NCBI GenBank assembly: GCA_029335935.2 | Contig: JARJMV020000182.1 | Location: forward strand, 1-17,496 | Length of the DNA: 17,496 nt | From: a bacterium | Lineage (GTDB): Bacteria; Armatimonadota; Fimbriimonadia; Fimbriimonadales; GBS-DC | Direction: 5' to 3' | Shown here: piece after piece, positions 51-17,365 of the stretch | Layout: every line of letters starts with the position of its first letter | Numbering within the stretch: the first letter of the stretch is position 1 | Program-made: the position numbers and the translations under genes | The notes under the pieces: generated by a model | The model's input: only the letters and a program-made list of their open reading frames with translations | The model's database searches: none | What the model was told of the DNA's origin: nothing

Positions 51-221
51 CTTGGACAAGAATGTCCAAGCCACGGGGCGTCCCCACCGACAAACACCGC
101 TTGGACAAGAATGTCCAAGCCACAGGGCGTCCCCGCCGACAAACAACGCTTGGACAAGAATCTCCAAGCCACGGGGCGTCCCTGCCGACAAACAACGCTT
201 GGACAAGAATGTCCAAGCCAC
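51..221. repeat. Tandem array of four 49-bp palindrome-bearing units
   Basis: Four copies of the 20-bp dyad CTTGGACAAGAATGTCCAAG (8-bp arms, AGAA centre) start at 51, 100, 149 and 198, exactly 49 bp apart. The third has one arm mismatch (TCTCCAAG). The 29-bp linkers are nearly identical and contain a second small palindrome of the type GGGGCGTCCCC followed by a GCCGACAAACAA-like stretch. All three forward frames stay open through the array and give repetitive peptides, which I regard as spurious. The architecture resembles REP/BIME-type extragenic palindromes; the function is unknown. Confidence 0.88.
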
Positions 222-230
222 AGTTGCGCT

Positions 231-258
231 GGTGCGACGCCATTCTTGGCGGCGCACC
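231..258. repeat. Second hairpin type (dyad B), left copy
   Basis: GGTGCGAC-GCC and GGC-GGCGCACC arms surround an ATTCTT loop, with one mismatched position in the outer stem. A 21-bp core from GGTGCGAC to TTGGCG recurs with one mismatch at 17106-17126 beside the other array. The rest of 259-328 shows nothing I recognise. Confidence 0.6.
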
Positions 259-328
259 GCGCTTGCACGACTTTCGTACCCTCAAGAAACCTTACGGAGA
301 GGGGTCAGGAGACTCACCCACCCAGGCG

Positions 329-651
329 TCAGAACTGCACGCCGAGCTTGAGGCTGCCCGAATAGTTCGGGCGCGACTGGGGCTGGGCGTCCATGCGCGG
401 CAGCAACATCTGCGCCTCCAACGCGAGGTAGAAACTCGACTGCTGGCGCGTCAGTCCGAGCCGCACCGCCGTCTCACGCAGGAACGCATCGCGCGCCCAT
501 TCCGATTGCTGGTAGGTCAATCCCAACAGCGTGGCGGCGTCGATATGTTTGCGCACGCTGAAGGTGTAGCGTCGCTCGGTGAATAGTTGTCCGATTTGGC
601 TTTGCTCAGTATAGCCCGCCTCAAGGTTCCATGCGCCGTGTCGCCAGCGCA
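329..651 (-). pseudogene. Duplicated 3' end of the adjacent outer-membrane protein gene
   Basis: Read on the minus strand, this encodes 106 residues matching the C-terminus of the protein encoded at 1508-3199. I count 12 substitutions, no gaps and no internal stop, ending in the same VQF-stop (TGA here, TAG in the parent). The nucleotide block 333-651 aligns without indels to 1512-1830, in the same orientation. Homology stops abruptly at 651, where an unrelated antisense RHS fragment begins. An open frame continues upstream to 790 but would give a chimera without signal peptide, so I treat this as a truncated copy. It may still serve as a recombination partner for the parent gene. Confidence 0.85.
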
Positions 652-652
652 T

Positions 653-848
653 GAGATTGAGTACTGGTATGACCGGGTGGGCAACCGCGTGCAGCGGGTG
701 CGCACAGTGAACGGGCAGACACGCACGGATGTGTTGACCTATGACGATGCGAACCGCGTGGCGAGTGTGAACGGTGTGGCATGGCAACACGATGCGAACG
801 GGAATGTGACGACGCGGCTAATAGACGGCGTAAGCTGGGTGTTGACCT
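653..848 (+). pseudogene. Orphan RHS/YD-repeat fragment
   Basis: The forward frame encodes about 65 residues of YD-repeat character: YDRVGNRVQRV, then VLTYDDANRVASVNG, then HDANGNVTTR. These are the beta-hairpin repeats that build RHS/TcdB-like shells of secreted toxins and wall-associated proteins. Both ends are missing. The 5' side is joined directly to the duplicated outer-membrane gene fragment at 651/652, and the repeat pattern is lost around 848, with the frame ending at 886. There is no signal peptide, core-closing motif or toxin tip, so it is a remnant. The exact 3' limit is approximate. Confidence 0.75.
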
Positions 849-1026
849 GTTGCAGCGCGGCGACATCAAGCAGTAGGCGACGCTGATGAAGTACATCATT
901 TTACTATGGCAGTTTGCGCTTTCGGTGAACTTGTGAGGAGGCATCCGTTTGCATCTCCACCAATGAAGGTGAATATTCGCTATGCGACAAGTTTGCACAC
1001 GAATTGGCTTGGTGAAGTTTCTATCT
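849..1026. other. AT-richer junction DNA without a convincing gene
   Basis: This stretch lies between the RHS remnant and the end of hicB and is visibly less GC-rich than its surroundings. It holds short open stretches only: a 16-codon hydrophobic frame at 886-936, and a 46-codon frame at 906-1046 that would overlap the hicB 3' end on the other strand. A good Shine-Dalgarno-like AGGAGG sits near 937, but the next ATG (965) is too far away. Composition and position suggest DNA acquired together with hicAB. Confidence 0.5.
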
Positions 1027-1245
1027 CTAACGCGCCTGATAAATGACAGGACGGTAGCGCGGCGCAGGTATAGGCTTGCCAGCATCGCGTGCGGCAGCCA
1101 ACCAGGCTTGCTTGGCAATCTGCACCTCTTGGAGCGCCTCTTCGGGCGTTTCGCCGAACGCGGAACACCCCGGCAAATCTGGAATATCCGCGATATATCC
1201 CTCGTCTTCTTCGCTGTAAAAGATGTTGATGTGGTAATCCTTCAT
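1027..1245 (-). CDS. hicB: HicB-family antitoxin
   Basis: This 72-residue protein carries the HicB partial RNase H-like fold signature: an N-terminal beta strand (YHINIFYSEEDEGYIADIP), the DLPGCSAFGETPEEAL motif and a following helix. It is the minimal form without an obvious C-terminal DNA-binding domain. HicB proteins neutralise the HicA mRNA interferase by direct binding and often autoregulate the operon. The start ATG overlaps the hicA stop by four bases (ATGA), so translation is probably coupled, in the usual hicA-hicB order. The gene is AT-richer than its neighbours, consistent with horizontal acquisition. Confidence 0.88.
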   Translation of the reverse strand: MKDYHINIFYSEEDEGYIADIPDLPGCSAFGETPEEALQEVQIAKQAWLAAARDAGKPIPAPRYRPVIYQAR

Positions 1246-1499
1246 TTGTTCTCAGCCTCCAACGATAAATTATACTCTTCCACGACCTTGAGAAACTGCT
1301 TGATTTGGTAGGGCTTTGCCTGTCCGCCTACATTTTGCAGATTCAACACAACAGGTAACTCTGGATGCACGAGGATATGATGACTGCCACTCACGCGGTC
1401 GAGGTAGAATCCATACGCTTCTGCCAGTCTCAGCATATCCTCGAAGCGTATATTTTTAGAACCCGCGAGTATGCGCTGTAGCACTTTGTGAGGTTTCAT
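1242..1499 (-). CDS. hicA: HicA-family toxin (putative mRNA interferase)
   Basis: This 85-residue protein resembles the HicA double-stranded RNA-binding-like toxin fold. An N-terminal helix region (MKPHKVLQRIL) and LAEAYGFYLDRVSGSHHILVH lead into the C-terminal helix (QIKQFLKVVEEYN). His40 of the GSHH motif is the likely catalytic histidine. HicA toxins cleave mRNA and arrest growth until HicB binds. I chose the ATG at 1499 because the longer open frame upstream runs antiparallel-shifted through the outer-membrane gene. The start is only 8 nt after that gene's stop, no Shine-Dalgarno is visible, and there is no room for a separate promoter outside the preceding coding sequence. Confidence 0.87.
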   Translation of the reverse strand: MKPHKVLQRILAGSKNIRFEDMLRLAEAYGFYLDRVSGSHHILVHPELPVVLNLQNVGGQAKPYQIKQFLKVVEEYNLSLEAENK

Positions 1500-1507
1500 A
1501 ACATGGT

Positions 1508-3199
1508 CTAAAACTGCACGCCGAGCTTGAGGCTGCCCGAGTAGTTCGGGCGCGACTGGGGCTGGGCGTCGTTGCGGGGCAGTAGCATTTGCATCTCCGC
1601 CGAGAGGTAGAAGCCCGATAGCTGGCGCGTAAGTCCCAGTCGAAGGGCGGCTTCGCGCAGGAACGCATCGCGCTCCCATTCCGATTGCTGGTAGGTCAAT
1701 CCCAACAGCGTGGCGGCGTCGAGCTGCTTGCGCACGCTGAAGGTGTAGCGTCGCTCGGTGAATAGTTGTCCGATTTGGTTTTGCTCGGTGTAGCCCGCCT
1801 CAAGGTTCCATGCGCCGTGTCGCCAGCGCAGTTGATACTGCTCGGTCTGCACGGGTTGCGGCGCGCCTTGATTCAGCGGATGCTGGGCGACCTGACCGCT
1901 CAGCGCCAGCCCCGCGCTCACGCGCCAATCCCAATGGATCTGCTGACTGCGCAGGTTCAGCCCGCGTAGCCCCTCATACATGCGCTCACGCAGCGTCAGT
2001 TGCAAGCCGTCGATGGGGTTCGCTTGAACCTGATAGCCGCGCATTTGCCCTGCATTCTCGATAGCTTCGTACTCGCCAGAGACGCGCAGGCGCGGGTCGA
2101 GCTGCGCTTGCAGTTGCGCTTGCGCCGCGCGTTGTTGGGAGTCCTCGCGCCAACGCTGGTCTAACCCCACCGCACCCTGCACGGTCGGCGTGCCGAAGCG
2201 CATTGCGACGCCGCTCTCCTCCGTGCGCCCCGCGTGCGAGTCGTCGACCGTGCGGTGGCGCAGCTCCATGCCCTGTCCAAGCTGCGTGCGCACCTGGGTC
2301 TGTTGCACCATACGCTCCCCTTGAGTGGTGGAATCCTGTTCCAGCTGGAGTCGCACCGCATCAGTAGGTTGCAGTTGCACCCGCGCGCGATCCACGACCT
2401 GCGTCGGTTGGTTGCCCAGCGCGGCAATCTGTCGCTCTAAGCTGAGCTGGATCTGCTGGAGTTGATAGTCCAACCCTGCGTGCCAGCGTTGTTGGGCGGA
2501 CTGATTGGGCAGCAGCGGTTCTTGAAGGCTCCATTGGAGGCGCGTGCGCAGGTGGGCGTCGGGCTGATAGAGCAGGTTCGCCTCGGCGGTTTGCTGTCCG
2601 CTGGCGAGACCGTAGGGGTTCGCATCGCCGAAGTCGCTGTCCACACGGCTAAATCGGAACCCGCCTTGCCAGCCTGTGTCGGTGCGCCACTGCGAGCGGA
2701 TTTGTAGCAGGCTGGGCGCGTCGTCGCCTTGCGGATTGCGGAACAGGTAGACCGCCTCGCCCTCGCGTGATGGCTCTTGCCAGCTCGCGCGCAGTCCCAA
2801 ATCGGTCGTGGGGCGGTTCGGGTCGCCGAGGATGCGTCCGCGCAAGCTTAGCGCTGCAGGTCCGCGACGCGCCAGCTCGGTCTCCAACGCGATATCGGCG
2901 TTCGTATTGCGCTGCGAGACGCCCGACTGGATCCGATAGCTCACGCGCGCGCTCTGGGTGGGCGTGAGTGCGTGGACGAAGCGGATTTGACCCGCCGCGT
3001 AGTCGATTGTGTAGTCCGCGTCGCGGCTAAGCCAGCGCGTATCCACCAACACAATCTCGGAACGCTCCACGACGCGGTTCCAGCTCAGCGTGTAGGGACC
3101 CGCCACGCCGCGCCCGACAATCACCTCCGAGACCAGCTCCTGCGCCGCTGCGCTCCCCAACAGATATGCCATCCATAGCGTCCACAGTGCGCGTTTCAT
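1508..3199 (-). CDS. Outer-membrane beta-barrel-like protein (exported, unknown function)
   Basis: This 563-residue protein has a clear signal peptide (residues 1-20, ending AAAQ). An N-terminal domain of about 70 residues has a TLSWN...ADYTIDYAAGQIRF pattern, a beta-sandwich-like module seen near the start of other outer-membrane proteins. The remaining ~450 residues alternate polar and hydrophobic positions, are rich in Gln, Arg and aromatic residues, and end in Phe. This matches the beta-signal expected of barrels inserted by the Bam machinery. I recognise no named family or TonB box. The 3' 319 bp are duplicated at 333-651. Eight nucleotides downstream begins hicA. The promoter is probably the AT-rich stretch just before the ATG, divergent from the protease gene. 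Confidence 0.75.
   Translation of the reverse strand: MKRALWTLWMAYLLGSAAAQELVSEVIVGRGVAGPYTLSWNRVVERSEIVLVDTRWLSRDADYTIDYAAGQIRFVHALTPTQSARVSYRIQSGVSQRNTNADIALETELARRGPAALSLRGRILGDPNRPTTDLGLRASWQEPSREGEAVYLFRNPQGDDAPSLLQIRSQWRTDTGWQGGFRFSRVDSDFGDANPYGLASGQQTAEANLLYQPDAHLRTRLQWSLQEPLLPNQSAQQRWHAGLDYQLQQIQLSLERQIAALGNQPTQVVDRARVQLQPTDAVRLQLEQDSTTQGERMVQQTQVRTQLGQGMELRHRTVDDSHAGRTEESGVAMRFGTPTVQGAVGLDQRWREDSQQRAAQAQLQAQLDPRLRVSGEYEAIENAGQMRGYQVQANPIDGLQLTLRERMYEGLRGLNLRSQQIHWDWRVSAGLALSGQVAQHPLNQGAPQPVQTEQYQLRWRHGAWNLEAGYTEQNQIGQLFTERRYTFSVRKQLDAATLLGLTYQQSEWERDAFLREAALRLGLTRQLSGFYLSAEMQMLLPRNDAQPQSRPNYSGSLKLGVQF
1512..1830 (-). repeat. Direct repeat (parent copy) of the 3' cassette
   Basis: This block aligns without gaps to 333-651 in the same orientation and covers the last 106 codons of the outer-membrane gene plus its stop. 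The two copies enclose about 860 bp holding hicAB and the RHS remnant. Recombination between them would remove that segment and leave an intact gene with an alternative 3' end. Confidence 0.85.
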
Positions 3200-3307
3200 C
3201 CTATATATAAGGATACCCTATAGTAGGCGCGCTCTGATTGCGGGAACAATTCTCTAAAAGAAGCGGGCAGGAATCCCCCTGCGCACGCCGAACTGCTCAT
3301 AGCCGAG
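3200..3307. promoter_or_regulatory. Divergent promoter region
   Basis: This 108-bp gap separates the divergently transcribed outer-membrane gene (minus) and tricorn-like protease (plus). On the minus strand GGGTATCCT followed by TTATATATAGG precedes the ATG and offers -10-like sequences (TATCCT or TATATA) within about 10 nt of the start. No strong Shine-Dalgarno is visible for either gene. An imperfect GCAGG...CCTGC dyad occurs around 3268-3283. Promoter assignment is by position and AT content only. Confidence 0.45.
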
Positions 3308-6300
3308 ATGCGTATCTTCGCGTTCGTTCTGGCGAGTCTGCTTTGCGTGGGAAGTTTTGCCCAGTCGGAGATTCGGTTCGCGCGGTTCCCTGCGCCGTCG
3401 CCTGATGGCGCTCAAATCGCCTTCTCGTGGCAAGGCGATATCTGGATTGCCCCGATCACTGGCGGCATCGCGCAACGCCTCACTGTCCACCCTGCCTACG
3501 ACTTCGCCCCCATCTGGTCGCCCGACGGCAAGAAAATCGCCTTCACCTCCGATAGGCACGGCAACGACGATGTGTTCGTGTTGCACTTGGACACAGGCGC
3601 GGTGCAACGCCTGACCTACTTTTCGGGGCGCGACCGCGCGTGGGGCTGGACGCCCGATAGCCAAGCGGTGCTGCTGGAGTCGCGTCGCGACGCCGAGCCG
3701 TATGGCGCGGATTTTGCCGCCTATGTCGCGCCCCTCAGCGGCGGCACGCCCTACCGCCTGCACAAAGCGAGCGGTTCGCCCTTCGCCCTTTCCCCCGACG
3801 GCAAACGCCTCGCCTTCGTCCGACGCGACAGCGCATGGTGGCGCAAAGGCTACAAGGGCAGCGCGCAAGGCGACCTGTGGCTTGTCGACCTCGCCACGCG
3901 CCGCTACACCCGAATCACCCAAACCGACACCCCCGACACCTTCCCGATGTGGGGCGCGGACGGACGCACCCTCTACTTCGTCTCCGAGCGCGACGGCACA
4001 GCCAACCTCTACGCGATGGACACCCAAACCAAGCGCATCCGCCCGCTCACCCGCTTCCAAAACGATGGCATCCGCTTCCCCCAAATCAGCGCGAACGGCA
4101 AGGTAATCACCTTCGAGCAAGGGATGGATACCTATCGGCTGGATACCGCCACGGGCGCACTGCGCGTCATCCCGCTGCAGGTTCCTGCGCACGACCGCCG
4201 CGCGCCCGATACCGTGCGCCGTACCTTCAGCGCGAATGTGGAAGACTACGCCCTCGCCCCCGACGCGAAAGAGTTCGTGTATGTCGTGCGCGGCGAGCTG
4301 TTCGCGGCGCGCTTCCCCGACGGCGGTCCCTCACGCAACCTGACCGAGACCATCGAACCCGAAAGCAACCCCCAACTCGCGCCCGACGGCAAAACGGTCT
4401 ACTTCGAGGCGGAGCGCAACGGCAGCACCCACATCTTCACTCTCACCTCCAACGACCCCGACGAACCGCGCCTGCGCCGCGCACGCTCGCACAAAATCGA
4501 ACCGCTAACTCACCGTCCTGAGGGCGAAAGCAAACCGCGCCTCGCGCCCGACGGCAAGTGGCTCGCCTTCCAACGCGGACAGGGCGACCTCGTGGTGATG
4601 CACCTCGAAACGAAACGGGAATTCACGCTCACTCGCTCGTGGAACTTGGGCAACATCGCCTGGTCGCCCGACAGCCGCTGGATTGCCTTCGACCGCTACG
4701 ACGAGAACTACAACAGCGATGTGTTCCTCGTGCGTGTGCCCGATTGGAACCCCCCTCAACCCCCGTCGGACACGCACGAATCGCACCCCGCTCCGACCCA
4801 AGCCGCGAGTGTGTCGGCGGAGCCAACTTTCGAGGTCTATAACCTGTCGCGTCATCCGCGCAATGACTTCGCGCCCAGTTGGTCGGCGGATGGGCGTGCG
4901 CTCGTGTTCCTCTCCGAGCGCGAGACCGATGTGCTCAACATTTGTCATGTGTGGCTGCGGCGCGCGGACTTTGAGCGCACCCGCGCCGACCGCGAAGACG
5001 AGGAAGACGACAAGTACGACGCGCCCAAAAAATCGGAAGCGAAAGACCCCGTGCGCGTGGAAATCGACTTGGAAGACCTCCACCAGCGCGTGCGCCTGGT
5101 GACGCGCTACGCGACAGGCGTGCAGGAGGCTATCGTCGCGCCCGACGGCGAGCAGATCGCCTTCCGCAGCGCATATCAAGGACAAGCCGACCTGTACCTC
5201 ATTAAGTGGGACGGCAGCGACGAGCGACGCCTCACCTCAGGCGGCGTGTCGCCCGCACAACTGCAGTTCAGCAAAGATGGCAAGACAATCTATTTTCTCA
5301 GTCGGGGCAGGCTCCAGCGCATCGCGACCTCAGGCGGCAGCCCCCAGACCACACGCACCGACGCCGAAATCACCATCGACCTTGCGAAAGAGCGTGAGTA
5401 CCTCTACGACGCCGCGTGGCGCACGCTGAACGAGACCTTCTACGACCCGAACTTTCACGGTGTGGACTGGGCGGCGATGCGCACGAAGTACCGCCCGTTC
5501 CTGCCCTATGCCCAGAGCGACCGCGACTTCACGGCGGTGGTGCTGATGATGCTGGGCGAGCTGCGTGCATCGCACCTGAGCTTCTCGCTGGCGCGTTCGG
5601 AGAGCGTGGACGCGCCGTCGAACACGGGGATGCTGGGCGCGGTGTTCAGCGACGCACGCGATGGTGAAGGCTTACGAATCGAGCGCGTGCTGCCCAACAC
5701 GCCCGCCGCACGCAAGGAGGTGAACCTGCAACCGGGCGAGCGCATCCTCGCCATCGACGGCAAGCCGATTACCCCCACAACGAATGTCTATCAGCTGCTG
5801 GACAACACGGTGGGCAAGCGGATTGAGGTGCGCGTGCGCAGCACGGACGGCGCGGAGCGGACGGTGTTCCTGCGTCCTATCTCCATCGCCGAGTTCAACA
5901 ACGCGCTCTATCGCGACTGGGTGGAGCGCAATCGGCAGTGGGTGGAGGCGCGCACGGGCGGGCGCGTGGGCTATGTGCATATCCAAGCGATGGGCGAGGC
6001 GAGCCTGCGCGAGTTCGAGCGCGACCTGTACGCGGTGGCGTATGGCAAAGAGGCGTTGATTATCGATGTCCGTTTCAACGGGGGCGGGCGCACGGCAGAT
6101 TACCTGCTGGCGATGCTCCATCCCCCGCGCCACGCCTACACCGTGGGGCGCAACGGCGAGCGGGGCTATCCGCAAGACCGCCTGCCCGTAATCGGCTGGC
6201 ATCAGCCGATTGTGGTGCTGTGCAACGAGCGCAGTTTCAGCAACGCCGAGATTTTCGCGCACGCGATTAAGACGCTCAAGCGGGGCGCGCTGGTGGGCAT

Positions 6301-6523
6301 GCCAACAGCAGGCGGCGTGATTAGCACAGGACAGCGGCGCCTGATGGACGGCAGCACGGTCTCCACGCCCGGACGCGGCTGGTTCACCATCGACAAGGGC
6401 GTGAACTTGGAGGGCAACGGCGCCGCGCCCGACTATCTGGTGGACTTCACCCCAGACGACGAGGCGTCCGAGCGCGACCCCCAACTGGAGAAAGCAGTGG
6501 AGGTGATAACCAAGCGTCGGTAG
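3308..6523 (+). CDS. Secreted tricorn-like serine protease (S41 family)
   Basis: This 1071-residue protein matches tricorn proteases in length and domain order. A signal peptide (1-19, ending SFAQ) is followed by two TolB/PD40-type beta-propeller regions (about 25-300 and 300-660) with many SPDGK.IAF repeats. An acidic linker (about 559-590) interrupts the second propeller. A PDZ domain follows (about 770-850), then the C-terminal S41 catalytic core. Residues corresponding to the known tricorn tetrad are present: Ser755-His756 in RASHLSF, nucleophile Ser978 in ERSFSNAE and Glu1035 in NLEGNG. Tricorn enzymes trim oligopeptides; the propellers gate access to the active site. The export signal places this one outside the cytoplasm, probably in the periplasm. 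It seems monocistronic. Confidence 0.92.
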   Translation: MRIFAFVLASLLCVGSFAQSEIRFARFPAPSPDGAQIAFSWQGDIWIAPITGGIAQRLTVHPAYDFAPIWSPDGKKIAFTSDRHGNDDVFVLHLDTGAVQRLTYFSGRDRAWGWTPDSQAVLLESRRDAEPYGADFAAYVAPLSGGTPYRLHKASGSPFALSPDGKRLAFVRRDSAWWRKGYKGSAQGDLWLVDLATRRYTRITQTDTPDTFPMWGADGRTLYFVSERDGTANLYAMDTQTKRIRPLTRFQNDGIRFPQISANGKVITFEQGMDTYRLDTATGALRVIPLQVPAHDRRAPDTVRRTFSANVEDYALAPDAKEFVYVVRGELFAARFPDGGPSRNLTETIEPESNPQLAPDGKTVYFEAERNGSTHIFTLTSNDPDEPRLRRARSHKIEPLTHRPEGESKPRLAPDGKWLAFQRGQGDLVVMHLETKREFTLTRSWNLGNIAWSPDSRWIAFDRYDENYNSDVFLVRVPDWNPPQPPSDTHESHPAPTQAASVSAEPTFEVYNLSRHPRNDFAPSWSADGRALVFLSERETDVLNICHVWLRRADFERTRADREDEEDDKYDAPKKSEAKDPVRVEIDLEDLHQRVRLVTRYATGVQEAIVAPDGEQIAFRSAYQGQADLYLIKWDGSDERRLTSGGVSPAQLQFSKDGKTIYFLSRGRLQRIATSGGSPQTTRTDAEITIDLAKEREYLYDAAWRTLNETFYDPNFHGVDWAAMRTKYRPFLPYAQSDRDFTAVVLMMLGELRASHLSFSLARSESVDAPSNTGMLGAVFSDARDGEGLRIERVLPNTPAARKEVNLQPGERILAIDGKPITPTTNVYQLLDNTVGKRIEVRVRSTDGAERTVFLRPISIAEFNNALYRDWVERNRQWVEARTGGRVGYVHIQAMGEASLREFERDLYAVAYGKEALIIDVRFNGGGRTADYLLAMLHPPRHAYTVGRNGERGYPQDRLPVIGWHQPIVVLCNERSFSNAEIFAHAIKTLKRGALVGMPTAGGVISTGQRRLMDGSTVSTPGRGWFTIDKGVNLEGNGAAPDYLVDFTPDDEASERDPQLEKAVEVITKRR

Positions 6524-6531
6524 CAGAGGTA

Positions 6532-6540
6532 TGGTACAAT
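6532..6540 (+). promoter_or_regulatory. Extended -10 promoter element
   Basis: TGGTACAAT, a TGn-extended -10 box, lies just after the protease stop and about 30 nt before the ATG at 6570. The predicted start of transcription near 6547 would leave a short leader carrying GGAGG (6557-6561), 8 nt before the start codon. The same GGTACAAT string occurs before nadC and before the small membrane-protein gene. No clear -35 is visible. Confidence 0.5.
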
Positions 6541-6569
6541 CGACGGCGATAATTGTGGAGGCGAAAACC

Positions 6570-7202
6570 ATGTCTAACTTGGAGTTCCGACAGATTCAAC
6601 TGAACTTGAACGCGGCGGTGGGACCGTTGAACGATGTGCGGCGGATGCGCATTATGGACGCCGTTGGCGAGGGGTTCAACCCCCAGCCTGTGCCGATAGC
6701 TGGTGCGATCGCGCTGGTGAACCCCCTCTCGCGCGAGGCGCTATTTCTCAACGAGAATCAGCTGCAATACACTTGCGACGGTATGCCTGCGCAGTTCTCG
6801 CCCTCGCGGGTGGAGAGCTTGCTTGCGGCTGTGCGCGACACCCTACTGCTGGAAGACCGCTTCCCGATGGTTTTGCAGGTCATCGCCCACATCGACGCCA
6901 ACGGCTCTGCCTTTGAGCGCACGGTGGAGGCGTTCACGCCCATCCCGCCCACGACGCTACGCGGCTACTTTCCCGGACTGCGCGGGCTGGGGCTGCGCAT
7001 CACCTTTGAAGAGACGCCCTATATCTGCGACCTGCGCATCGAGCCGCTGTTCAGCGACCCTGCATTCTTCTTTGTGCAGTTCAACGCTGGTTCGCAGCAG
7101 ACGGCGCAGTCCCTCGCGGCCATATTGGACGATACGACCCACTGGCTGAACCGTCTGCAGGGTGAGATGAACGATGTTATTCAAGAGATTCTGGGCGCGT
7201 GA
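6570..7202 (+). CDS. Hypothetical protein, upstream partner of the PP2C phosphatase
   Basis: I do not recognise this 210-residue protein. It has no signal peptide or membrane segment and looks like a soluble alpha/beta protein. The first half contains a hydrophobic stretch (IAGAIALVNPLSREALFLNEN). The middle has predicted strands (FPMVLQVIAHIDANG and LGLRITFEETPYICDLRIEPL). The end is an amphipathic helix (ILDDTTHWLNRLQGEMNDVIQEIL). I prefer the ATG at 6570 over the in-frame ATG at 6531, because GGAGG (6557-6561) is ideally spaced and 6531 lies inside the promoter-like element. The last 29 bases overlap the phosphatase gene, implying translational coupling and a linked role. Confidence 0.75.
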   Translation: MSNLEFRQIQLNLNAAVGPLNDVRRMRIMDAVGEGFNPQPVPIAGAIALVNPLSREALFLNENQLQYTCDGMPAQFSPSRVESLLAAVRDTLLLEDRFPMVLQVIAHIDANGSAFERTVEAFTPIPPTTLRGYFPGLRGLGLRITFEETPYICDLRIEPLFSDPAFFFVQFNAGSQQTAQSLAAILDDTTHWLNRLQGEMNDVIQEILGA

Positions 7203-8082: not shown

Positions 8083-8090
8083 CCGCCTGC

Positions 8091-9122: not shown

Positions 9123-9167
9123 GCGCCATAAGATACCCGAACTGCCTCAATTCGGGAGAGGTATACT
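9123..9167. promoter_or_regulatory. Compact divergent promoter with nested inverted repeats
   Basis: Only 45 bp separate the divergent ligase and ATPase genes. On the minus strand GGTATCTT (9137-9130) lies 7 nt before the ligase GTG. On the plus strand GGTATACT (9160-9167) abuts GTG 9168 and lies 6 nt before the in-frame GTG 9174. CCCGAA (9136-9141) and TTCGGG (9151-9156) form a hairpin or operator-like dyad, and ATACC (9133-9137) and GGTAT (9160-9164) an outer one. This arrangement would let one regulator act on both genes. Confidence 0.5.
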
Positions 9168-10682: not shown

Positions 10683-10692
10683 GGGTGTGCCG

Positions 10693-12000
10693 ATGCTGAG
10701 CGCCAAGTCCATCACGGCAGGCTACAATCACGCGCCGATAGTGCTAAACGCCTCACTGCAGGTTCAGACAGGTCAGGTGGTCGCTTTGCTGGGGCCGAAC
10801 GGTTCGGGCAAGACGACTCTGCTGCGCACGCTGGCGCGCACGCTCACGCCGTTTGAAGGCGAGCGACTGCTGGATGGCAAACCCTACGACGCCTATCACC
10901 CGACCGAATTTGCCCGTCTGGTTGCCTACGCGCCTCAAGAGACGCCTGCCGAGATGGGCTTCACGGTTGCCGAACTGGTGATGATGGGGCGGTATCCGCA
11001 CCAGAAGGGGTTCTGGGGTGTGAGTCGCGCCGACCGCGACGCCGTAGCGCAGGCGATGGCGCAAACCGAGATTGCGGCGCTTGCCGAACGCACCATCAGC
11101 CAGCTCAGCGGCGGCGAGCGACAGCGCGTGAACCTCGCCCGCGCACTCGCCCAACAAGCGCGCTACCTGCTGCTGGATGAACCCACCACGCACTTAGACC
11201 TGCACCACCAGACGCGCCTGATGGAGATGCTACGCCAACACGCGCAGCGACAGGGCGTCGGCGCACTGCTGGTGCTGCACGACCTGAACTTAGCCGCGCA
11301 ATATGCCGACTGGATTGCGCTGATGCAGGCAGGGCGCATCGTGGGGCAGGGCGCGCCCGACGCCGTGTTGCAGCCTGAGCTGCTGGAAAGCGTCTATCAG
11401 ACGCCTGTGCTACGCCAAATGAACCCGCTCACGGGCAGACCGCTGCTGTTCCCGCTCGGCCAAGAGGCGCGCACGCCGTTGGCAAGCGACGCGCCGACAG
11501 CGTTCGTGATTGCTGGCGGCGGTTCGGGCGCGGCGGTCTACTACGCGCTCCTGTCGGCAGGTTGGCGCGTGCGCACGGGCGTACTGAACCTACTGGATAC
11601 CGACGAGGAGGTCGCCCGCGCGCTCCAACTGGAGCATATCACCGAGCAGCCCTTCTCGCCCATCTCGGACGCGGCGTACCAGCGCGCGCAGTCGCTGATT
11701 GGCGAGGCGCAGGCGGTCGTGATTGCCGACGCGCCGTTCGGACACGGCAACCTGCGCAACTTGGAGCTGGCGGTCTGGGCGCAGCGGCGTGGAGTGCCCA
11801 TCTACGCGCTGGAGGCGCGTCCGTTCCACACACGCGATTTCACGCACGGCAACGCGACGCTACTGTGGAACCTCCTGCGTCAGCACGGGATGCATACCGC
11901 CGCGAGCCTCGACGCGCTCATAGACCAACTGCGCCACGACGCAACGCACGCTTACTCTCATAACAGTAGCGCGAGTCGGGGAACATCTTCTCCGGGTTAA
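10693..12000 (+). CDS. ABC transporter ATPase (FhuC/BtuD/HmuV type) with C-terminal extension
   Basis: In this 435-residue protein, residues 1-250 are a complete ABC ATPase: Walker A GPNGSGKTT (34-42), Q-loop Gln82, signature LSGGERQR (138-145), Walker B LLLDEP (159-164) and switch His196. The sequence resembles ATPases of iron-siderophore, heme and cobalamin importers. Residues about 268-410 add a second domain beginning FVIAGGGSGA, with a glycine-rich Rossmann-like start and the stretch GVLNLLDTDEEVARAL. Similar long forms exist in other bacteria. No permease or binding protein is nearby. ATG 10693 is preferred to GTG 10687, as GAGGGTG lies 5 nt upstream. The 3' end overlaps the convergent oxidase gene by 83 bp, and the low-complexity tail (SSASRGTSSPG) lies within it. 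Confidence 0.9.
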   Translation: MLSAKSITAGYNHAPIVLNASLQVQTGQVVALLGPNGSGKTTLLRTLARTLTPFEGERLLDGKPYDAYHPTEFARLVAYAPQETPAEMGFTVAELVMMGRYPHQKGFWGVSRADRDAVAQAMAQTEIAALAERTISQLSGGERQRVNLARALAQQARYLLLDEPTTHLDLHHQTRLMEMLRQHAQRQGVGALLVLHDLNLAAQYADWIALMQAGRIVGQGAPDAVLQPELLESVYQTPVLRQMNPLTGRPLLFPLGQEARTPLASDAPTAFVIAGGGSGAAVYYALLSAGWRVRTGVLNLLDTDEEVARALQLEHITEQPFSPISDAAYQRAQSLIGEAQAVVIADAPFGHGNLRNLELAVWAQRRGVPIYALEARPFHTRDFTHGNATLLWNLLRQHGMHTAASLDALIDQLRHDATHAYSHNSSASRGTSSPG

Positions 12001-13354
12001 GTTTGTCGTGCGGGTTGAATACTGCCTTGACGCGCTTCATCGTCTCCAAGTCGTGCGCGTTGAACATCTGGCGCATCAGGGCGCATTTCTCTGTGCCGAT
12101 GCCATGCTCGCCTGTGAGGCTGCCGCCTGCGCGTAGGCAAAGTTGTAGGATTTCGTCGCCTGCTTCCACGACCCGCGCCACTTGGTCGGGGTCGGAGTCG
12201 TCGAACAGCAGTACGGGGTGCAGGTTGCCGTCGCCTGCGTGGAACACATTGGCGAGTTGGAGTTGGTATTTCGCAGCGATTTGGGCGGCTTCGCGCAGCA
12301 CTTGGGGCAGTTTGGAGCGCGGGATGACGCCGTCTTGCGTGACGCAGGAGGGCGCGAGCCTGCCCAACGCGCCGATGGCTTTCTTCCGCGCCGCCCAGAG
12401 CCGCGCACGCTCGATGGGCGTGTCGGCTTGACGCACCTCGCGCGCACGATTGCGCCGACAGATTGCCAACACATCCGCCTGCTCGCCATCCAACTCCACT
12501 TCCAAGCCGTCCAGTTCGATGAGTAGCACCGCTTCGGCGTCCAGCGGGAAGCCATAGCCGAACGCCGCTTCCACTGCCTGCAGGGTGAGCGCGTCCATCA
12601 GCTCCAGCGCGGCAGGCACGATGCCGCCCGCGATAATGTCGGATACGGTCTGACTGGCGTCTTCCAGTGTTTCGAACACGGCGAGCAGGGTGCGCACGCC
12701 TCGCGGATGGGGCGTGCGGCGCGCGACGACCTCTCTGACGATTGCCAGCGTGCCCACGCTGCCCGTGATTAGCCCCACCAGGTCGTAGCCGAGCGGGTCG
12801 TCCTCCTCGCCGCCGAGCTCCACGACCTCCCCGTCGGGCAACACGACCTGCAAGGCTGTGATGTGGTTCACCGTCACGCCGTATTTGAGCGTGTGGGGAC
12901 CGCCCGAGTTCTCGGCGACATTGCCGCCGATGGTGCATGCGCCTTGTGAGGAGGGGTCGGGCGCGAAGTGGAAGTGGGCGTGTTGCACGGCTTTAGTGAG
13001 TTGATAGTTCACCGCGCCCGCTTGGGCGCGTAGGCGTCGGTTGGCGGTGTCTACCCATAAGATACGGTTCATACGGCTAAAGCCTATCACCACGCCGCCG
13101 TGAACGGCGAGTGCGCCGCCCGACAGCCCTGTGCCCGCCCCGCGCGGTGTGATGGGCAGCCCTACGCGACTCGATAATTGCACCACTGCGGCGACCTGCT
13201 CTGTCGTTTCGGGCAGCACGACCACCGTCGGCAACGATTTCTCTATTGTGTAGGCGTCGCAGTCGTAGGCGAGCAAGCCCACAGGGTCGGTAATCACCCC
13301 GTCCGCGCCCACGATGCGCGCCAACTCCCTGCGCAGCGACTCGGATATGCTCAT
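11918..13354 (-). CDS. FAD-linked oxidase, GlcD-type (glycolate/D-lactate dehydrogenase subunit)
   Basis: This 478-residue flavoprotein is of the VAO/PCMH family. The FAD-binding motif PRGAGTGLSGGA (70-81), PDPSSQGACTIGGNVAENSG (132-151), GSVGTLAI (198-205), the C-terminal HAGDGNLHP (372-380) and GEHGIGTEK (415-423) are all present. GlcD-type enzymes oxidise 2-hydroxy acids such as glycolate or D-lactate, passing electrons to partner subunits; no GlcE or GlcF is in the window, so the substrate is open. I placed the start at ATG 13354 rather than further upstream. It overlaps the stop of the small membrane-protein gene as ATGA, suggesting coupled translation. The last 27 codons overlap the ABC ATPase gene tail to tail. 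Confidence 0.92.
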   Translation of the reverse strand: MSISESLRRELARIVGADGVITDPVGLLAYDCDAYTIEKSLPTVVVLPETTEQVAAVVQLSSRVGLPITPRGAGTGLSGGALAVHGGVVIGFSRMNRILWVDTANRRLRAQAGAVNYQLTKAVQHAHFHFAPDPSSQGACTIGGNVAENSGGPHTLKYGVTVNHITALQVVLPDGEVVELGGEEDDPLGYDLVGLITGSVGTLAIVREVVARRTPHPRGVRTLLAVFETLEDASQTVSDIIAGGIVPAALELMDALTLQAVEAAFGYGFPLDAEAVLLIELDGLEVELDGEQADVLAICRRNRAREVRQADTPIERARLWAARKKAIGALGRLAPSCVTQDGVIPRSKLPQVLREAAQIAAKYQLQLANVFHAGDGNLHPVLLFDDSDPDQVARVVEAGDEILQLCLRAGGSLTGEHGIGTEKCALMRQMFNAHDLETMKRVKAVFNPHDKLNPEKMFPDSRYCYESKRALRRGAVGL

Positions 13355-13641
13355 CGCAACCCCTGAATGAATAGTCCGATCAGTACGGCGAGTGCAAGGA
13401 GCGCGAGGGCAATCCAGCCGTAGCGTGCGGCGAGGCGGTCGCGCTCGCGCGCCAGCCATGCCAAGTGCGCCAGCGCCAGCAGCGGCGTCAACAGCAGCAG
13501 CCCCAGCCCCGCGTCGATAAGCCAGTTGCGTTCGTCACCGCTCATCAGATGCCATACCCAGCCGATAGCCATCGTCAGCGCACTTAGGTAGGTCAATCGC
13601 CGATAGGTCTGCGCAACGCTCTGCTCGATCTCGCCCCGCAC
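13351..13641 (-). CDS. Small three-helix membrane protein (DUF1634-like)
   Basis: This 96-residue protein has three hydrophobic segments: LTYLSALTMAIGWVWHLM (16-33), a long one from WLIDAGLGLLLL to HLAWLA (about 40-64) and the C-terminal WIALALLALAVLIGLFI (76-92). The layout, with a charged ARERDRLAARYG loop before the last helix, resembles the DUF1634 family of unknown function. I assign that only tentatively. Translation starts at GTG 13641. Upstream, GGAGGAGG could be a distant ribosome site, or GGTACAAT 6 nt before the start a -10 box. The four-base overlap with the oxidase gene suggests the products are made together; a membrane anchor for the oxidase is a possible but unproven role. Confidence 0.72.
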   Translation of the reverse strand: MRGEIEQSVAQTYRRLTYLSALTMAIGWVWHLMSGDERNWLIDAGLGLLLLTPLLALAHLAWLARERDRLAARYGWIALALLALAVLIGLFIQGLR

Positions 13642-13647
13642 GAGTAG

Positions 13648-13655
13648 ATTGTACC
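13648..13655 (-). promoter_or_regulatory. -10-like GGTACAAT before the membrane-protein gene
   Basis: Reading the minus strand, GGTACAAT ends 6 nt before GTG 13641. This spacing would place the transcription start at or next to the start codon, giving a leaderless mRNA. The identical 8-mer precedes nadC and the hypothetical gene at 6570. Immediately upstream is GGAGGAGG, so read-through from the hydrolase gene with Shine-Dalgarno-led translation is the alternative. Confidence 0.4.
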
Positions 13656-13686
13656 TCCTCCTTGTCGGGGGCGACGGAGGGGCGTG

Positions 13687-15108
13687 TTAACGCGCAGGCG
13701 CACGGTCGAAGAAGGCGAAGGCGTCGGGCATGGCCTCGCGCACAATCATTAGGTGGTCGCAGCCGTCGTACTTTTTGTAGTCCAGCGTCTTCAGGTTCAG
13801 CCCTTGCAGGCGGCGATAGGCGGTCTCGATGTTGGTCTTGAGCATGCTGAGTTCTTGCTCGCCGACGGTCATCAAGATAGGCAGGTCGGCAGGGACTTGG
13901 GTGGGTAGTCCTGCGCCTGCGAAGATGGCGACGGCGCGGAATCGGTCGGGGAACTGCGCAATCGCGGCAAAGCTATGTGCGCCGCCCATCGAGTGCCCCA
14001 TCAGATAGATGCGCGTGGGGTCTATCGGCAGCAGTTTCTGGGCGGCTTCCAGCGCGCCGCCGATGTGCGCCAAGTTCATCTCGGCGCGTGGGGCAATCAC
14101 CGCCCAGCCGCGCCGCTCGGCTTCTTTGAGGATGACGCCCAGCCCGTAGCCCTCAAAAAACAGATGCTCGTTGCCCCCTGCTCCGTGCAGGGCAAGCACA
14201 AGTGGGATTGGCTGGTTCGGTTGGAACTGCTTGGGGATGAACAGCCGAAACGCCACCTTGCGCTCGCGGTGGAGCGTCGCCATCCAGTAGTCGCCCGGCG
14301 CGGGTTGCCACGCCGATTTACCTGCTTCCCAGCCTGCCGCGAGCTGCTCGGCAAGTTGGAGCAGGCGCAGCAGGGGATAGAAAGTCTCTGGACTGTCGCC
14401 TTTCTGGGCGTTGCGCAACACATCGCGCGCATTCAGCACGGTCATGCGCTCGGTGGGGTCGGCGTCGTCGTGCGATTCGGCGGCTTGGTCTAACGCTTGC
14501 AGCCGCGCGCTCAGTTGGGCGATTACGCTGAAGGTCTGTCGCCACTGGCGCAGGGTCTGCTCGCCTTGACGGATTTCGAAGTGCGCTTCGTAGTCGCCCT
14601 CGGCGGCTTGGGTGAGCAAGGTTGCGGCGTCGCCTGGCTTGGGGTTCTCCAGCGTTCCTTCACGGAGGGAGCGCGTCTCGCCTCGGCGCGTCACTTTCCA
14701 GCGCAGTTGCAGCGGGGCGTCGGGCGCGTCCGCGCGATAGAACTCAAATAGCTGCAGGCGCAACACAAATTCGCCCCGATCGAGCAACTCTTTCTCAACG
14801 GCGTGGGGCAAGCGGACGCCGATGGAACCTGCGTAGAGCATTTCGGGCGTGGGCGGCGCGTCGGAGCGCAGCAGCGCACAGGTCTGCGTCAGGCTCCGCG
14901 CGAGCGCGCCGAACCGTCCAGAGAAGAAGGCGGTTAGCCCCTCCGAGAGTGGGCGCGTGGCGCGCAGGCGCGCTTCCGGCGAGTCGCGGTGCGCTTCCCA
15001 GCACGCTTCCATCTCGATGAGGCGCGCTGCTAAGTCCGCCCGCGTGATGGGCGACTGGCTCCACGCGCCGCACCACAGTAGCAACCCCAACAGCCCGATG
15101 ACACGCAT
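13687..15108 (-). CDS. Secreted alpha/beta hydrolase (esterase/PHB-depolymerase-like)
   Basis: This 473-residue protein has a signal peptide (1-18, ending AWSQ). A region of about 260 residues that I do not recognise follows, mixed beta and helical, before a C-terminal alpha/beta-hydrolase domain from about residue 283. In that domain HGAGGNE (308-314) is the oxyanion-hole region, GHSMGG (371-376) carries nucleophile Ser373, and GCDHLM supplies His452. The acid is unclear: around TVGEQEL (414-420) the usual Asp is missing and Glu417 or Glu419 may replace it. The domain resembles feruloyl-esterase, LpqC and PHB-depolymerase-type enzymes, acting outside the cytoplasm; the substrate is unknown. 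It lies 43 nt downstream of the kinase gene and 45 nt before the membrane-protein gene, on the same strand. Confidence 0.85.
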   Translation of the reverse strand: MRVIGLLGLLLWCGAWSQSPITRADLAARLIEMEACWEAHRDSPEARLRATRPLSEGLTAFFSGRFGALARSLTQTCALLRSDAPPTPEMLYAGSIGVRLPHAVEKELLDRGEFVLRLQLFEFYRADAPDAPLQLRWKVTRRGETRSLREGTLENPKPGDAATLLTQAAEGDYEAHFEIRQGEQTLRQWRQTFSVIAQLSARLQALDQAAESHDDADPTERMTVLNARDVLRNAQKGDSPETFYPLLRLLQLAEQLAAGWEAGKSAWQPAPGDYWMATLHRERKVAFRLFIPKQFQPNQPIPLVLALHGAGGNEHLFFEGYGLGVILKEAERRGWAVIAPRAEMNLAHIGGALEAAQKLLPIDPTRIYLMGHSMGGAHSFAAIAQFPDRFRAVAIFAGAGLPTQVPADLPILMTVGEQELSMLKTNIETAYRRLQGLNLKTLDYKKYDGCDHLMIVREAMPDAFAFFDRAPAR

Positions 15109-15151
15109 AAGGTGAAGATTCTTTGCGCCTGGGAATGCTCCTGCCGAGCGG

Positions 15152-16225
15152 TTAGCCGTCGCGCAGTGGCTCGCCCATCTCCGTGCCGTCGGGCAAAATG
15201 CGCAGGTAGCCCAGCTGCACCCAGCGCACGGGCTGCACCGAGCGCACGGGCGTCAGCACGGTCAGTGTCCGCGCCTTGTAGTCCAGCGTCTCTATCAGCC
15301 CCAGCCCGTAGCAGCGCCCCGTGTAATCGATGAGCCCCACCAGCAGGTGATGGTATGCCGACTGGGGCAACATCACGAGTTTATCGACCTGAGCGAGGGT
15401 CATGAGGGTCTCGATTTGCGCGTCGCTGAGCGGTTGGCGCACGATGAGGTGGAGCGAGTCGCCCACCATCTCGGCGTGGAGCAGCTCGGCGCGGATTTGC
15501 TCACTGAAGAATCGGCGTCGCGCGTCGGAGAGCGGTTGCCCCGCGCCCAGTCGCCTGCCGATGAAGCGGAACTGCTCGATCGGCATGGCGTGCGCGTGCG
15601 CCTGCTCGAAGTAGCGTGCGAACGCCGCGCGTCGGTGCTGCGCTCGGTGTGGGGGCGACTTGCGCAGGATGCTCTTGGGCACTGCCAGCTCGTACAGTTT
15701 CCAATCGGCGCGCATGCGCAACGCGCCGAGTATCGGCTCCAGCTCGTCCCCGCGCTTGAGCGCCACTATCGCTTGAGGGCGCAGCAGGTCGACCAGCATA
15801 ATCTTGTAAGCGCGTCCGTGCCAGCCGCCGATATAGCCGTCGGTATCGATGACGACGCTGTCGGGCTGTAGGGGGGCTAAGTCGTCCAGCACGCGCCGCG
15901 CGCCTGTCAGCGCCTGCGAGACATGGCGCACAGGCGACACATCGCCCAGAAACGCCATACTGTACGGCGTCAACTCGCTGAGCAGCTCATACGGTTTGTT
16001 AATCAGCACGCTGCTGAACGCGGCAGGGGGTCCGATGCTGGTTTGTCCCACATCGAGGTCTACGAAGCCGACGCTGCGTCCCACCTGCTGCTGCAGTTTG
16101 AGCAACAGCGAGCAGAGGGTAGACTTGCCTGTGTCGGTTGCGCCCAGCACGAGGGTGGTTCCGCTGGCAGTGATGAGTTCGTCGACTGCTTCCTGCCATT
16201 CGGGGTACAGTTCGCGCCAGCGCAT
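15152..16225 (-). CDS. Clp1/Grc3-family polynucleotide kinase-like protein
   Basis: This 357-residue P-loop protein has the Clp1/Grc3 layout. Walker A is GATDTGKST (28-36). VDLDVGQTSIGPP follows (about 55-67), matching the family's D-x-x-x-GQ motif. VIDTDGYIGG with a downstream LLRPQAIVAL stretch matches the family's NTxGW...LxP region. The C-terminal domain is LIDYTGRCYGLGLIETLDYKARTLTVLTPV, ending in a beta-rich GYLRILPDGTE. Family members phosphorylate 5'-OH ends of RNA or DNA; archaeal examples are of about this size. The long N-terminal domain of eukaryotic Clp1 is absent. I start at ATG 16225, one nucleotide after the nadC stop, as upstream residues in the open frame look non-native. 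This tight spacing implies co-transcription with nadC. Confidence 0.85.
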   Translation of the reverse strand: MRWRELYPEWQEAVDELITASGTTLVLGATDTGKSTLCSLLLKLQQQVGRSVGFVDLDVGQTSIGPPAAFSSVLINKPYELLSELTPYSMAFLGDVSPVRHVSQALTGARRVLDDLAPLQPDSVVIDTDGYIGGWHGRAYKIMLVDLLRPQAIVALKRGDELEPILGALRMRADWKLYELAVPKSILRKSPPHRAQHRRAAFARYFEQAHAHAMPIEQFRFIGRRLGAGQPLSDARRRFFSEQIRAELLHAEMVGDSLHLIVRQPLSDAQIETLMTLAQVDKLVMLPQSAYHHLLVGLIDYTGRCYGLGLIETLDYKARTLTVLTPVRSVQPVRWVQLGYLRILPDGTEMGEPLRDG

Positions 16226-16226
16226 C

Positions 16227-17069
16227 TTAGAACTCCAAGTGCATCGGCAAAATGGGCGCGGAGTGGGTGAGCGCGCCGACGGAGATGTAGTCCACGCCCG
16301 TTTCGGCGATCGCACGCACCGTGTTCAGGTTCACGCCCCCCGACGCCTCGATGAAGCGCACGCGCCCTTTGGCAAGCCGTACCGCCTCGCGGAGGGTCTC
16401 CAGCGGCATGTTGTCCAGCAAGAGTCCATCTGCGCCTGCCTCGATTGCCTGCTCCACTTGCTCCAGCGTTGTGCATTCCACCTCTACGGCGAGCAGGTGA
16501 TGGGCGTTTTGGCGAGCGCGGCGCACCGCCTCACGAATGTCGCCGCCCAACGCGACAAGATGGTTGTCCTTGATGAGGATGCCGTCGTACAGCCCCACGC
16601 GATGGTTGCGCCCGCCGCCCACGCGCACGGCGTATTTTTCCAGCAGGCGCAGTCCGGGCGTCGTTTTGCGCGTGTCCGTCGCCTGAGCACCTGTGCCCTC
16701 GATGGCGTCCACAAACTGGCGCGTAAGCGTGGCAATCCCCGACAGATGTTGCAAAAAGTTCAGTGCAGTCCGCTCTGCTTTCAGAATGGCTCGCGTGTTG
16801 CCGTGAATTTGCAGCACGGGCGCGTCGGGGACGAGCAGCGCGCCGTCGGAGAGGGCGTGTGGAAACTGGATATCGGGGTCAAGGGCACGAAACACGCGCT
16901 GGGCAACGGCGACGCCGCACAACACGCCTTCTGCCTGCGCCAAAATCGCGCACTGCATACTATGGTCGGCTGGAATCAAGCTATCAGTTGTCCAATCACC
17001 CGCGCCCAAGTCCTCTTGTAGGGCGCGGCTAATCAGCGCATCGAGGTCCAACTCGCTATACTTATACAT
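16227..17069 (-). CDS. nadC: Nicotinate-nucleotide diphosphorylase (carboxylating)
   Basis: This 280-residue protein is quinolinate phosphoribosyltransferase, the usual family length. It converts quinolinate and PRPP to nicotinate mononucleotide in de novo NAD synthesis. Diagnostic stretches are EDLGAGD (19-25), ERTALNFLQHLSG (99-111), TRKTTPGLR (133-141), GGGRNHR (151-157), KDNH (167-170), VEVE (195-198) and LDN (218-220). These include the arginine, lysine and histidine residues that bind quinolinate and phosphates. ATG 17069 fits the family N-terminus. A GGTACAAT box lies 7 nt upstream and no Shine-Dalgarno is seen. nadA and nadB are not in the window. It heads the minus-strand cluster. 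Confidence 0.97.
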   Translation of the reverse strand: MYKYSELDLDALISRALQEDLGAGDWTTDSLIPADHSMQCAILAQAEGVLCGVAVAQRVFRALDPDIQFPHALSDGALLVPDAPVLQIHGNTRAILKAERTALNFLQHLSGIATLTRQFVDAIEGTGAQATDTRKTTPGLRLLEKYAVRVGGGRNHRVGLYDGILIKDNHLVALGGDIREAVRRARQNAHHLLAVEVECTTLEQVEQAIEAGADGLLLDNMPLETLREAVRLAKGRVRFIEASGGVNLNTVRAIAETGVDYISVGALTHSAPILPMHLEF

Positions 17070-17076
17070 CGGGTGA

Positions 17077-17084
17077 ATTGTACC
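17077..17084 (-). promoter_or_regulatory. -10-like GGTACAAT before nadC
   Basis: On the minus strand GGTACAAT is followed by 7 nt and then the nadC ATG. This spacing places the likely transcription start at the start codon, i.e. a leaderless message. No good -35 hexamer is visible; the upstream DNA is the dyad B repeat. Confidence 0.5.
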
Positions 17085-17105
17085 TGCCCGCCGACACCCT
17101 GCACA

Positions 17106-17143
17106 GGTGCGACACCATTCTTGGCGTCGTAGCCTCGGCGTCC
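17106..17143. repeat. Dyad B, right copy, with CTCGGCGTCC element
   Basis: GGTGCGAC-ACC-ATTCTT-GGC-GTCGTAGCC forms an imperfect hairpin and matches the left copy at 231-251 in 20 of 21 core positions. It is followed by CTCGGCGTCC (17134-17143), which in the left cluster occurs at 25-34. It sits just upstream of the nadC promoter, outside any gene. Confidence 0.6.
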
Positions 17144-17191
17144 ACGCCAACAACACCAACCACCGTACCATCGCGTCCCCGACAAACTCTG

Positions 17192-17365
17192 CTTGGACAG
17201 GAATGTCCAAGCCACTGTAGCACGGACATTCCTGTCCGTGCAGAACCCCGTGCATACCGTCGCGTCCCCGACAAGGTCTGCTTGGACAGGAATGTCCAAG
17301 CCACTGGGGGCGTCCCCGATAAGGTCTGCTTGGACAGGAATGTCCAAGCCACTGGGGGCGTCCCC
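17192..17365. repeat. Palindrome array upstream of nadC
   Basis: Three dyads CTTGGACAGGAATGTCCAAG occur at 17192-17211, 17281-17300 and 17329-17348, the last two 48 bp apart with near-identical linkers. A variant dyad, CACGGACATTCCTGTCCGTG, lies at 17221-17240. It has changed arms but intact pairing, and its centre reads as the reverse complement of the others. The linkers again contain GGGGGCGTCCCC. This is the same family as the left-end array but with a GGAA rather than AGAA centre. Open frames through it (LDIPVQAD-like peptides) look spurious. Confidence 0.87.

Follow-up and report, generated by a model that had tools for sequence, protein, structure and literature searches.

The palindromes at both ends of contig C260 (GenBank JARJMV020000182.1), from a draft genome of the Fimbriimonadales (Armatimonadota), are very probably GTAG-tagged repetitive extragenic palindromic (REP) elements. 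They are arranged in head-to-head pairs, units of the kind called REPINs (REP doublets forming hairpins) or bacterial interspersed mosaic elements (BIMEs), and would be spread by a REP-associated tyrosine transposase (RAYT). The stretch analysed, hereafter the window, is the complete contig of 17,496 bases, and both arrays therefore lie at assembly ends. Its source, here G000, is a draft of 2.03 Mb in 335 contigs that is 85.5% complete. We read the repeats in this way because they carry a one-sided GTRG (GTAG or GTGG) tag, form inverted two-ended dimers and recur genome-wide, because relatives have RAYT genes flanked by REPs, and because the unit is present or absent at an orthologous site.

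A preliminary description of this DNA had listed eight dyads, and all were found again. Seven follow CTTGGACA-N4-TGTCCAAG (the CTT form; 0.04 matches expected by chance with up to three mismatches allowed) and one follows CACGGACA-N4-TGTCCGTG (the CAC form, 17221-17240). Six of the seven CTT dyads are perfect; in the other, at 149-168, one arm is broken, with TCTCC instead of TGTCC. The REP/BIME-like family proposed at that stage holds up in the evidence below. What had been overlooked was the one-sided tag, the degenerate left-end palindromes inside a 49-bp repeat unit, a third class of palindrome, and the fact that the window is a whole contig.

Two-ended units across the genome

The core pattern GGACA-N4-TGTCC has 171 exact copies in G000, compared with 3 for a reversed control pattern, so that the further copies anticipated by the preliminary description do exist. 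Sixty fetched contigs, all longer than 3 kb, together with the window contain 157 of these copies (one of the sixty, C261, has none), and 151 remained for the tag count once six that lay too near a contig end were dropped. GTAG or GTGG immediately precedes the stem, on the strand with the pyrimidine-rich loop, in 138 of the 151 copies, and occupies the mirror position in 9. In 139 of the 151 the outer arm triplets are fully complementary, where 1000 shuffles gave a mean of 65.7 and a maximum of 83. A free search of the same contigs for perfect palindromes with arms of at least 8 bases returned 275, dominated by few classes: CACGGACA-GGAA (48), CTTGGACA-GGAA (41), CTTGGACA-AGAA (24) and CGTCGGCG-GGGA (18). 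Searching the GTDB 220 collection for GTAGCACGGACATTCYTGTCCGTGC yielded 58 stretches, all from Fimbriimonadales or, once, Armatimonadota, in a collection from which the window's genome was possibly left out. A reading of these repeats as CGTC-tagged REPs was rejected, the tag here being GTAG or GTGG; CGTC occurs where one left stem class starts, and 47 of the 60 sites of that class have GTAG in front of it.

Allowing at most one mismatch, 272 sites could be classed: CTT (126) and CTG (7), the right classes, and CAC (79) and CGTCGGCG (60), the left classes. Sites no more than 150 bp apart form 197 neighbouring pairs, 117 in opposite and 80 in the same orientation. Neighbours in opposite orientation combine a left with a right class in 116 of 117 cases, while those in the same orientation are left-left or right-right in 79 of 80. 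Head-to-head pairs are separated by 5-9 bp in 54 of 71 instances. A dimorphic REP pair has the CTT form at one end and the CAC form at the other; they are not alternative states of one hairpin. The preliminary description was correct that arm positions 2 and 3 change together with their partners between these forms. It had taken this as a sign of selection on a hairpin or a symmetric protein site; since the forms are two ends of one unit, their difference by itself is no evidence of compensatory evolution.

Depending on the cluster rule, the sixty contigs hold 66 or 72 separate clusters, or about 70, and array periods across the genome range from 34 to 67 bp. Simple tandem duplication of a palindromic stretch in place, with no dedicated transposase involved, could produce arrays with such periods, and also arrays that differ in size between sister genomes at the same place. 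Some 70 separate clusters, ends defined by a tag, and the presence or absence of the unit at the spacer described below demand dispersal as well, and we consider duplication on its own highly improbable. It probably adds copies within arrays.

Clusters also coincide with assembly breaks. In G000, 47 of 72 are no more than 200 bp from a contig end, against 5.7% expected, among contigs that had been fetched because they bear REPs. In the close sister genome G162, which aligns to G000 at about 88-97% over kilobases, the figure is 9 of 24 for contigs chosen regardless of REPs, omitting two cut contigs. Such arrays break the assembly, which is why the window has one at either end. The idea that many G000 contig ends meet at REPs in G162 was rejected, as only one (L155) of the four loci that span two G000 contigs joins two REP-bearing ends (by eye).

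Presence, absence and turnover at orthologous sites

The orthologous spacer between a TetR-like and a TolC-like gene (both named from sequence reading) was compared in 14 genomes of the family, the comparison leaving aside G155 and G161 (no TetR match) and G165 and G166 (37% and 43% identity). In G159 the spacer contains a dimer, a RAYT, and two further dimers. G000 has two tandem dimers, and G162, G163 and G152 have one each, that of G152 being degenerate; the finder missed one or both ends in these four genomes, whose dimers were read by eye. Eight of the 14 (G160, G158, G157, G156, G153, G151, G164 and G167) have no REP pair in the spacer, and in one, G154, it is cut by the contig end. A single tagged palindrome at the end of the TetR gene in G156 is taken as chance. 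In G000, G163 and G152 the element starts with GTAGC after an identical TTAGCCCCCC; the tag in G162 is GCAG, and G159 differs in the bases before the tag. In G157, which lacks the pair, TTAGCCCCCC is followed by other sequence. The inverted pair that serves as the unit of REPINs and BIMEs is present or absent at this one site.

The stems at this spacer differ between species. G000 and G162 have the left stem CACGGACA/TGTCCGTG, while G163 and G159 have CACGGGCG/CGCCCGTG; the right stem is CTTGGAC/GTCCAAG versus CTTGAG/CTCAAG. Stem pairs that differ on both sides between species are better evidence of compensatory evolution than the contrast of CTT with CAC. These differences may reflect replacement by conversion or re-insertion, and the pair may have been lost from some of the eight genomes without it.

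A rival explanation is that the hairpins are regulatory RNA elements or transcription terminators, which act after transcription and in which selection for the RNA fold maintains the paired changes. The single strands do fold stably (z of -6.0 to -7.9 with DNA parameters in four sequences, both ends folding well), and the left stem of the G152 spacer shows G.T pairs on one strand (by eye). Moreover, 201 of the 272 sites fall outside called genes where the coding share is 85% and about 15% is non-coding, as judged by a crude open reading frame (ORF) caller and with 146 of the 201 beside a contig end, having no called neighbour on that side. The other 71 lie inside called genes, and several of the 20 listed fall in the last part of an ORF that extends into an array. 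Against this, at least 5 T in 8 bases are seen in just 12 of 534 flanks, which is not the pattern of intrinsic terminators, and the window has no Rfam match. The spacer has no pair in eight relatives, and a terminator needs neither the left/right orientation rule nor the GTRG tag. We therefore regard RNA elements as a very unlikely account of the family; this alternative, which the preliminary description had raised, gained no support. The hairpins may nevertheless influence RNA or chromosome structure in a secondary way.

The high copy number and almost perfect symmetry would also suit operator-like sites, at which a regulator or nucleoid protein would bind the inverted repeat in double-stranded form. 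Yet the arms differ between left and right ends and between species with pairing kept, a freedom not expected if a protein read the duplex, and genomes of one genus have anywhere from 0 to 358 copies. We give this explanation almost no credence.

REP arrays, as we read them, also change in size. Between G000 and G162, orthologous arrays number 3 v 1, 5 v 8, 5 v 10, 3 v 6, 4 v 3, 3 v 4, 2 v 2 and 4 v 2 copies. The loci compared (L153-L210) were fetched as REP-bearing and are biased to occupied sites; 25 G000 clusters had usable flanks, and some comparisons rest on one short flank. A REP-independent sample of 58 G162 contigs offered four usable orthologous sites, all occupied in both genomes (1 v 1, 1 v 1, 2 v 1 and 3 v 2). 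Elsewhere, one palindrome matching the search pattern stands at the G000 site L029:2562; G161 shows no such palindrome there. An apparent absence of L119:8604 in G163 was rejected, as it proved to be a dimer with other stems.

Transposases and copy number

RAYTs occur among the relatives of G000. The NCBIfam profile for REP-associated tyrosine transposases (NF047646) matches at E of 0.001 or less in 105 of 151 genomes of the phylum, above the curated cut-off in 53 of them and in 4 of the 18 genomes of the family; the weaker matches include a related gene that is not a RAYT. Flanks were tested for 41 RAYT loci rather than for all profile matches. Using a strict finder, 10 of these 41 have inverted tagged palindromes on both sides with the tags outside, compared with 0 of 16 control loci of the non-RAYT gene, and the tags-inside arrangement was seen in 3 of 41. 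Two-sided loci include those of G159, G153, G156 and G098, with no internal stop, and of G166, with one stop. The G159 RAYT sits between left-CAC/right-CTT dimers, and the stop-bearing RAYT of G166 between a left-CAC end and a right-CTT end. In G153 and G156 the flanks are two differing ends, TGCTGAAG/TGCGGAAG, and in G098, from another family, CACGGACA-CTCC-TGTCCGTG stands on both flanks.

Related repeats are visible further afield. In two genomes from other families of the phylum, G110 (contig C35; L058-L070, L125) and G043 (L054-L082), the core is GGACA[AG]GAATGTCC with other outer arms, GTAGGAG preceding the core in G110 and CTAACTGGGACCGC in G043. A RAYT is about 120 bp away from one of the G110 copies. 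RAYT relatives from metagenomes and other phyla (P0001, P0003, P0087) have translated repeats at their ends (GTGVPP, GMGFQPM), which indicates that ORF callers read flanking REPs as protein. Peptide tags translated from GGACATTCCTGTCC occur in none of the 120 metagenome RAYT homologues listed (of 7895 matches); translated REPs of other sequence (GTGVPPV, GMGFQPM) are present in some.

The left end of a unit consists of GTAG and then a CAC- or CGTCGGCG-class hairpin, and the right end, mostly 5-9 bp away, of GTGG or GTAG and then an inverted hairpin of the CTT or CTG class. By analogy with RAYTs studied elsewhere, we envisage the following cycle. The RAYT, an HUH transposase with a single tyrosine, would recognise each end by its hairpin, folded in single-stranded DNA, cut at the GTRG tag and copy the pair to new places, a chemistry presumed here to resemble that of its studied counterparts. 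Arrays might then grow or shrink by local duplication, slippage or further RAYT action. The repeats themselves account for the breaks of these drafts at the arrays and for the translated REPs seen at the ends of predicted proteins.

Several observations weigh against spread by a RAYT. None was found in the G000 draft, where an alignment-based search gave only a sigma-fused paralogue (E of 0.044), nor in the drafts of G154, G161 and G162, the other three copy-richest genomes of the genus. Core copies number 358 in G162, 218 in G154, 199 in G161, 171 in G000, 94 in G163, 60 in G159 and 17 in G152, falling to 13 in G157, 12 in G158, 3 in G155, 2 in G153, 1 in G160 and 0 in G156, and in these drafts REP copy number is not linked to a detectable RAYT. 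The RAYTs of G163 and G159 score below the family cut-off and strongly against a RAYT alignment; those above the cut-off, in G153 and G156, go with another REP type. G160 has a stop-bearing copy, and RAYT fragments occur in G152, G159 and G153. Further, 31 of the 41 RAYT loci failed the two-sided flank test, though the finder is strict, and the four REP-independent sites revealed no fresh jump between G000 and G162. The dedicated transposase suggested in the preliminary description is supported by REP-flanked RAYTs in relatives, and not by any in the G000 draft.

The cognate RAYT of G000 has presumably been lost or dropped from the assembly. A RAYT between two REP arrays would form a contig of about 1 kb, and because the fetched G000 contigs exceed 3 kb, it could be missing from the assembly; at the TetR-TolC site, the G000 contig reads through without a RAYT where G159 has the matching one. 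A different possibility is that REP pairs reached hundreds of copies, with stems changed in concert by species on both strands and also at shared sites, in lineages that have since lost the RAYT. We think this unlikely. If true, gene conversion, slippage or another HUH protein, rather than a resident cognate transposase, would keep the hairpins matched and the populations large.

The only Y1_Tnp match in G000, on contig C261 (L115:4519-5451), was considered as a REP mobiliser and rejected. It scores 64.9 bits against the NCBIfam IS200 cut-off of 55 and 26.3 bits against the RAYT cut-off of 80. Its HUH motif reads PNQVYL, and its sigma-70 region-4-like end scores 19.3 bits in Pfam, below the cut-off of 24.1. 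The same shape of match recurs in 16 of the 18 family genomes, regardless of REP count, and the finder detected no tagged palindromes beside the gene in G000. At the orthologous loci (among L219-L236), the HUH motif is PNQVY, PNQVH or PNQIH in the 13 that were aligned out of 16. With an IS200-like Y1 domain fused to a sigma-70 region-4-like end, the gene has the appearance of a domesticated transposase, probably inactive, that now serves as a DNA-binding protein.

Features of the contig, and known systems

The left array of the window opens at 1-13 (plus strand) with CACGGACATTCCTGTCCGTG, the right half of a left-type REP truncated by the contig start, which agrees with the partial CAC-type copy previously reported at position 1. 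A degenerate left-type REP of the CGTCGGCG class follows at 20-43 (plus), with its GTAG tag at 20-23, read by eye against GTAG-CGTCGGCG-TCCC-CGCCGACG. Its partner is the right-type REP at 51-74 (minus; dyad 51-70), CTTGGACA-AGAA-TGTCCAAG with a minus-strand GTGG tag at 71-74. Pattern search located further right-type REPs with GTGG tags, all on the minus strand, at 100-123 (dyad 100-119), 149-172 (the copy with one arm mismatch) and 198-221 (dyad 198-217). Between them, by eye, an eroded left-type remnant that has lost its tag (GGCGTCCCCACCGACA) lies at 77-92 (plus) within the 49-bp repeat unit (families D2, D3), and similar remnants lie at 126-141 and 175-190. The 49-bp unit is a REP pair with an eroded left end, in which GTAG-TCTCGGCGTCCCCACCAACA is still legible at 20-43.

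The right array includes a degenerate left-type REP of the CGTCGGCG class with a GTAG tag at 17129-17152 (plus, by eye). The right-type REP CTTGGACA-GGAA-TGTCCAAG at 17192-17215 (minus; dyad 17192-17211, GTGG tag 17212-17215) stands tail-to-tail with the left-type REP GTAG-CACGGACA-TTCC-TGTCCGTG at 17217-17240 (plus), which in turn is head-to-head with a right-type REP at 17281-17304 (minus; dyad 17281-17300). A last right-type REP lies at 17329-17352 (minus; dyad 17329-17348), and both of these have GTGG tags. Of the tandem periods reported earlier, 49 bp is right for the left array, where it occurs three times, while 48 bp applies to one interval of the right array, the other being 89 bp. 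The loop centres AGAA (left) and GGAA (right), described as specific to each cluster, are so in the window and are not a rule, as other G000 arrays (L083, L085) mix both.

The third class of palindrome, TGCGACGCC-ATTCTT-GGCGGCGCA, was found by palindrome search at 233-256, with a second, degenerate copy at 17108-17131 (neither assigned a strand). The relative G163 has this class in tandem next to its RAYT, and within the limits of that locus it is on one side. The window also has a 300-bp direct repeat (333-632 and 1512-1811, 89% identity), which places a second copy of the end of the ORF at 1508-3199 upstream. By eye, the ORF at 587-886, between the repeat copies, resembles an RHS/YD-repeat fragment, and minus-strand coding stretches at about 1030-1500 resemble a HicA/HicB-type toxin-antitoxin pair.

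In the BIMEs of Escherichia coli, Y and Z REPs alternate in opposite orientation. The units described here likewise alternate two REP types in opposite orientation; their sequences are different, and the likeness is one of description. With REPINs (Bertels and Rainey 2011, PMC3116915) they share the inverted REP doublet as unit and ordered tandem arrays of near-identical units, and differ in having two end classes with different arms, mostly 5-9 bp apart. E. coli REPINs are reported to persist in genomes without a RAYT, at no fewer than 69 per genome (PMC8049555). In the dimorphic RAYT-REP pairs reported by Nunvar et al. (2010, PMC2817692), about 10x more REPs accompany a cognate rayt in most strains, in contrast to the present genus, whose four copy-richest genomes show no RAYT in their drafts.

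The closest likeness is to the GTAG super-family, as characterised in the survey of Di Nocera et al. (2013, PMC3733652), where a one-sided GTAG/GTGG tag defines GTAG REPs; our repeats have both this tag and a high copy number. Shared features are a GTAG tag, or GTGG in some families, at one end; alternative complementary stem residues and short loops; head-to-head, tail-to-tail and head-to-tail dimers, clusters, and heterodimers of two stem types; and RAYT genes near the repeats that are absent from some species. Head-to-tail dimers are described there as rare, whereas here 80 of 197 close neighbours are head-to-tail. The survey's text, as far as it was available, does not mention Armatimonad, Fimbriimonas or Chthonomonas, and the likeness is to its descriptions rather than to its consensus sequences. 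A literature search for REPs, RAYTs or palindromic repeats in Armatimonad or Fimbriimonad groups, or for the core sequence, found no description, judged by titles.

The palindromes are a known kind of element in a phylum that this survey, in the text available, does not name. Here a single genus combines copy numbers at both extremes with one spacer in which empty, dimer-only and transposase-bearing states occur together, so that, given closed genomes, the relation of RAYT presence to REP copy number and stem turnover becomes testable. The Fimbriimonadales (Armatimonadota) would thereby join the bacteria with abundant GTAG REPs and RAYTs, beside the Proteobacteria, Cyanobacteria, Chloroflexi and Planctomycetes-Verrucomicrobia-Chlamydiae (PVC) group from which GTAG repeats have been reported (PMC3733652).

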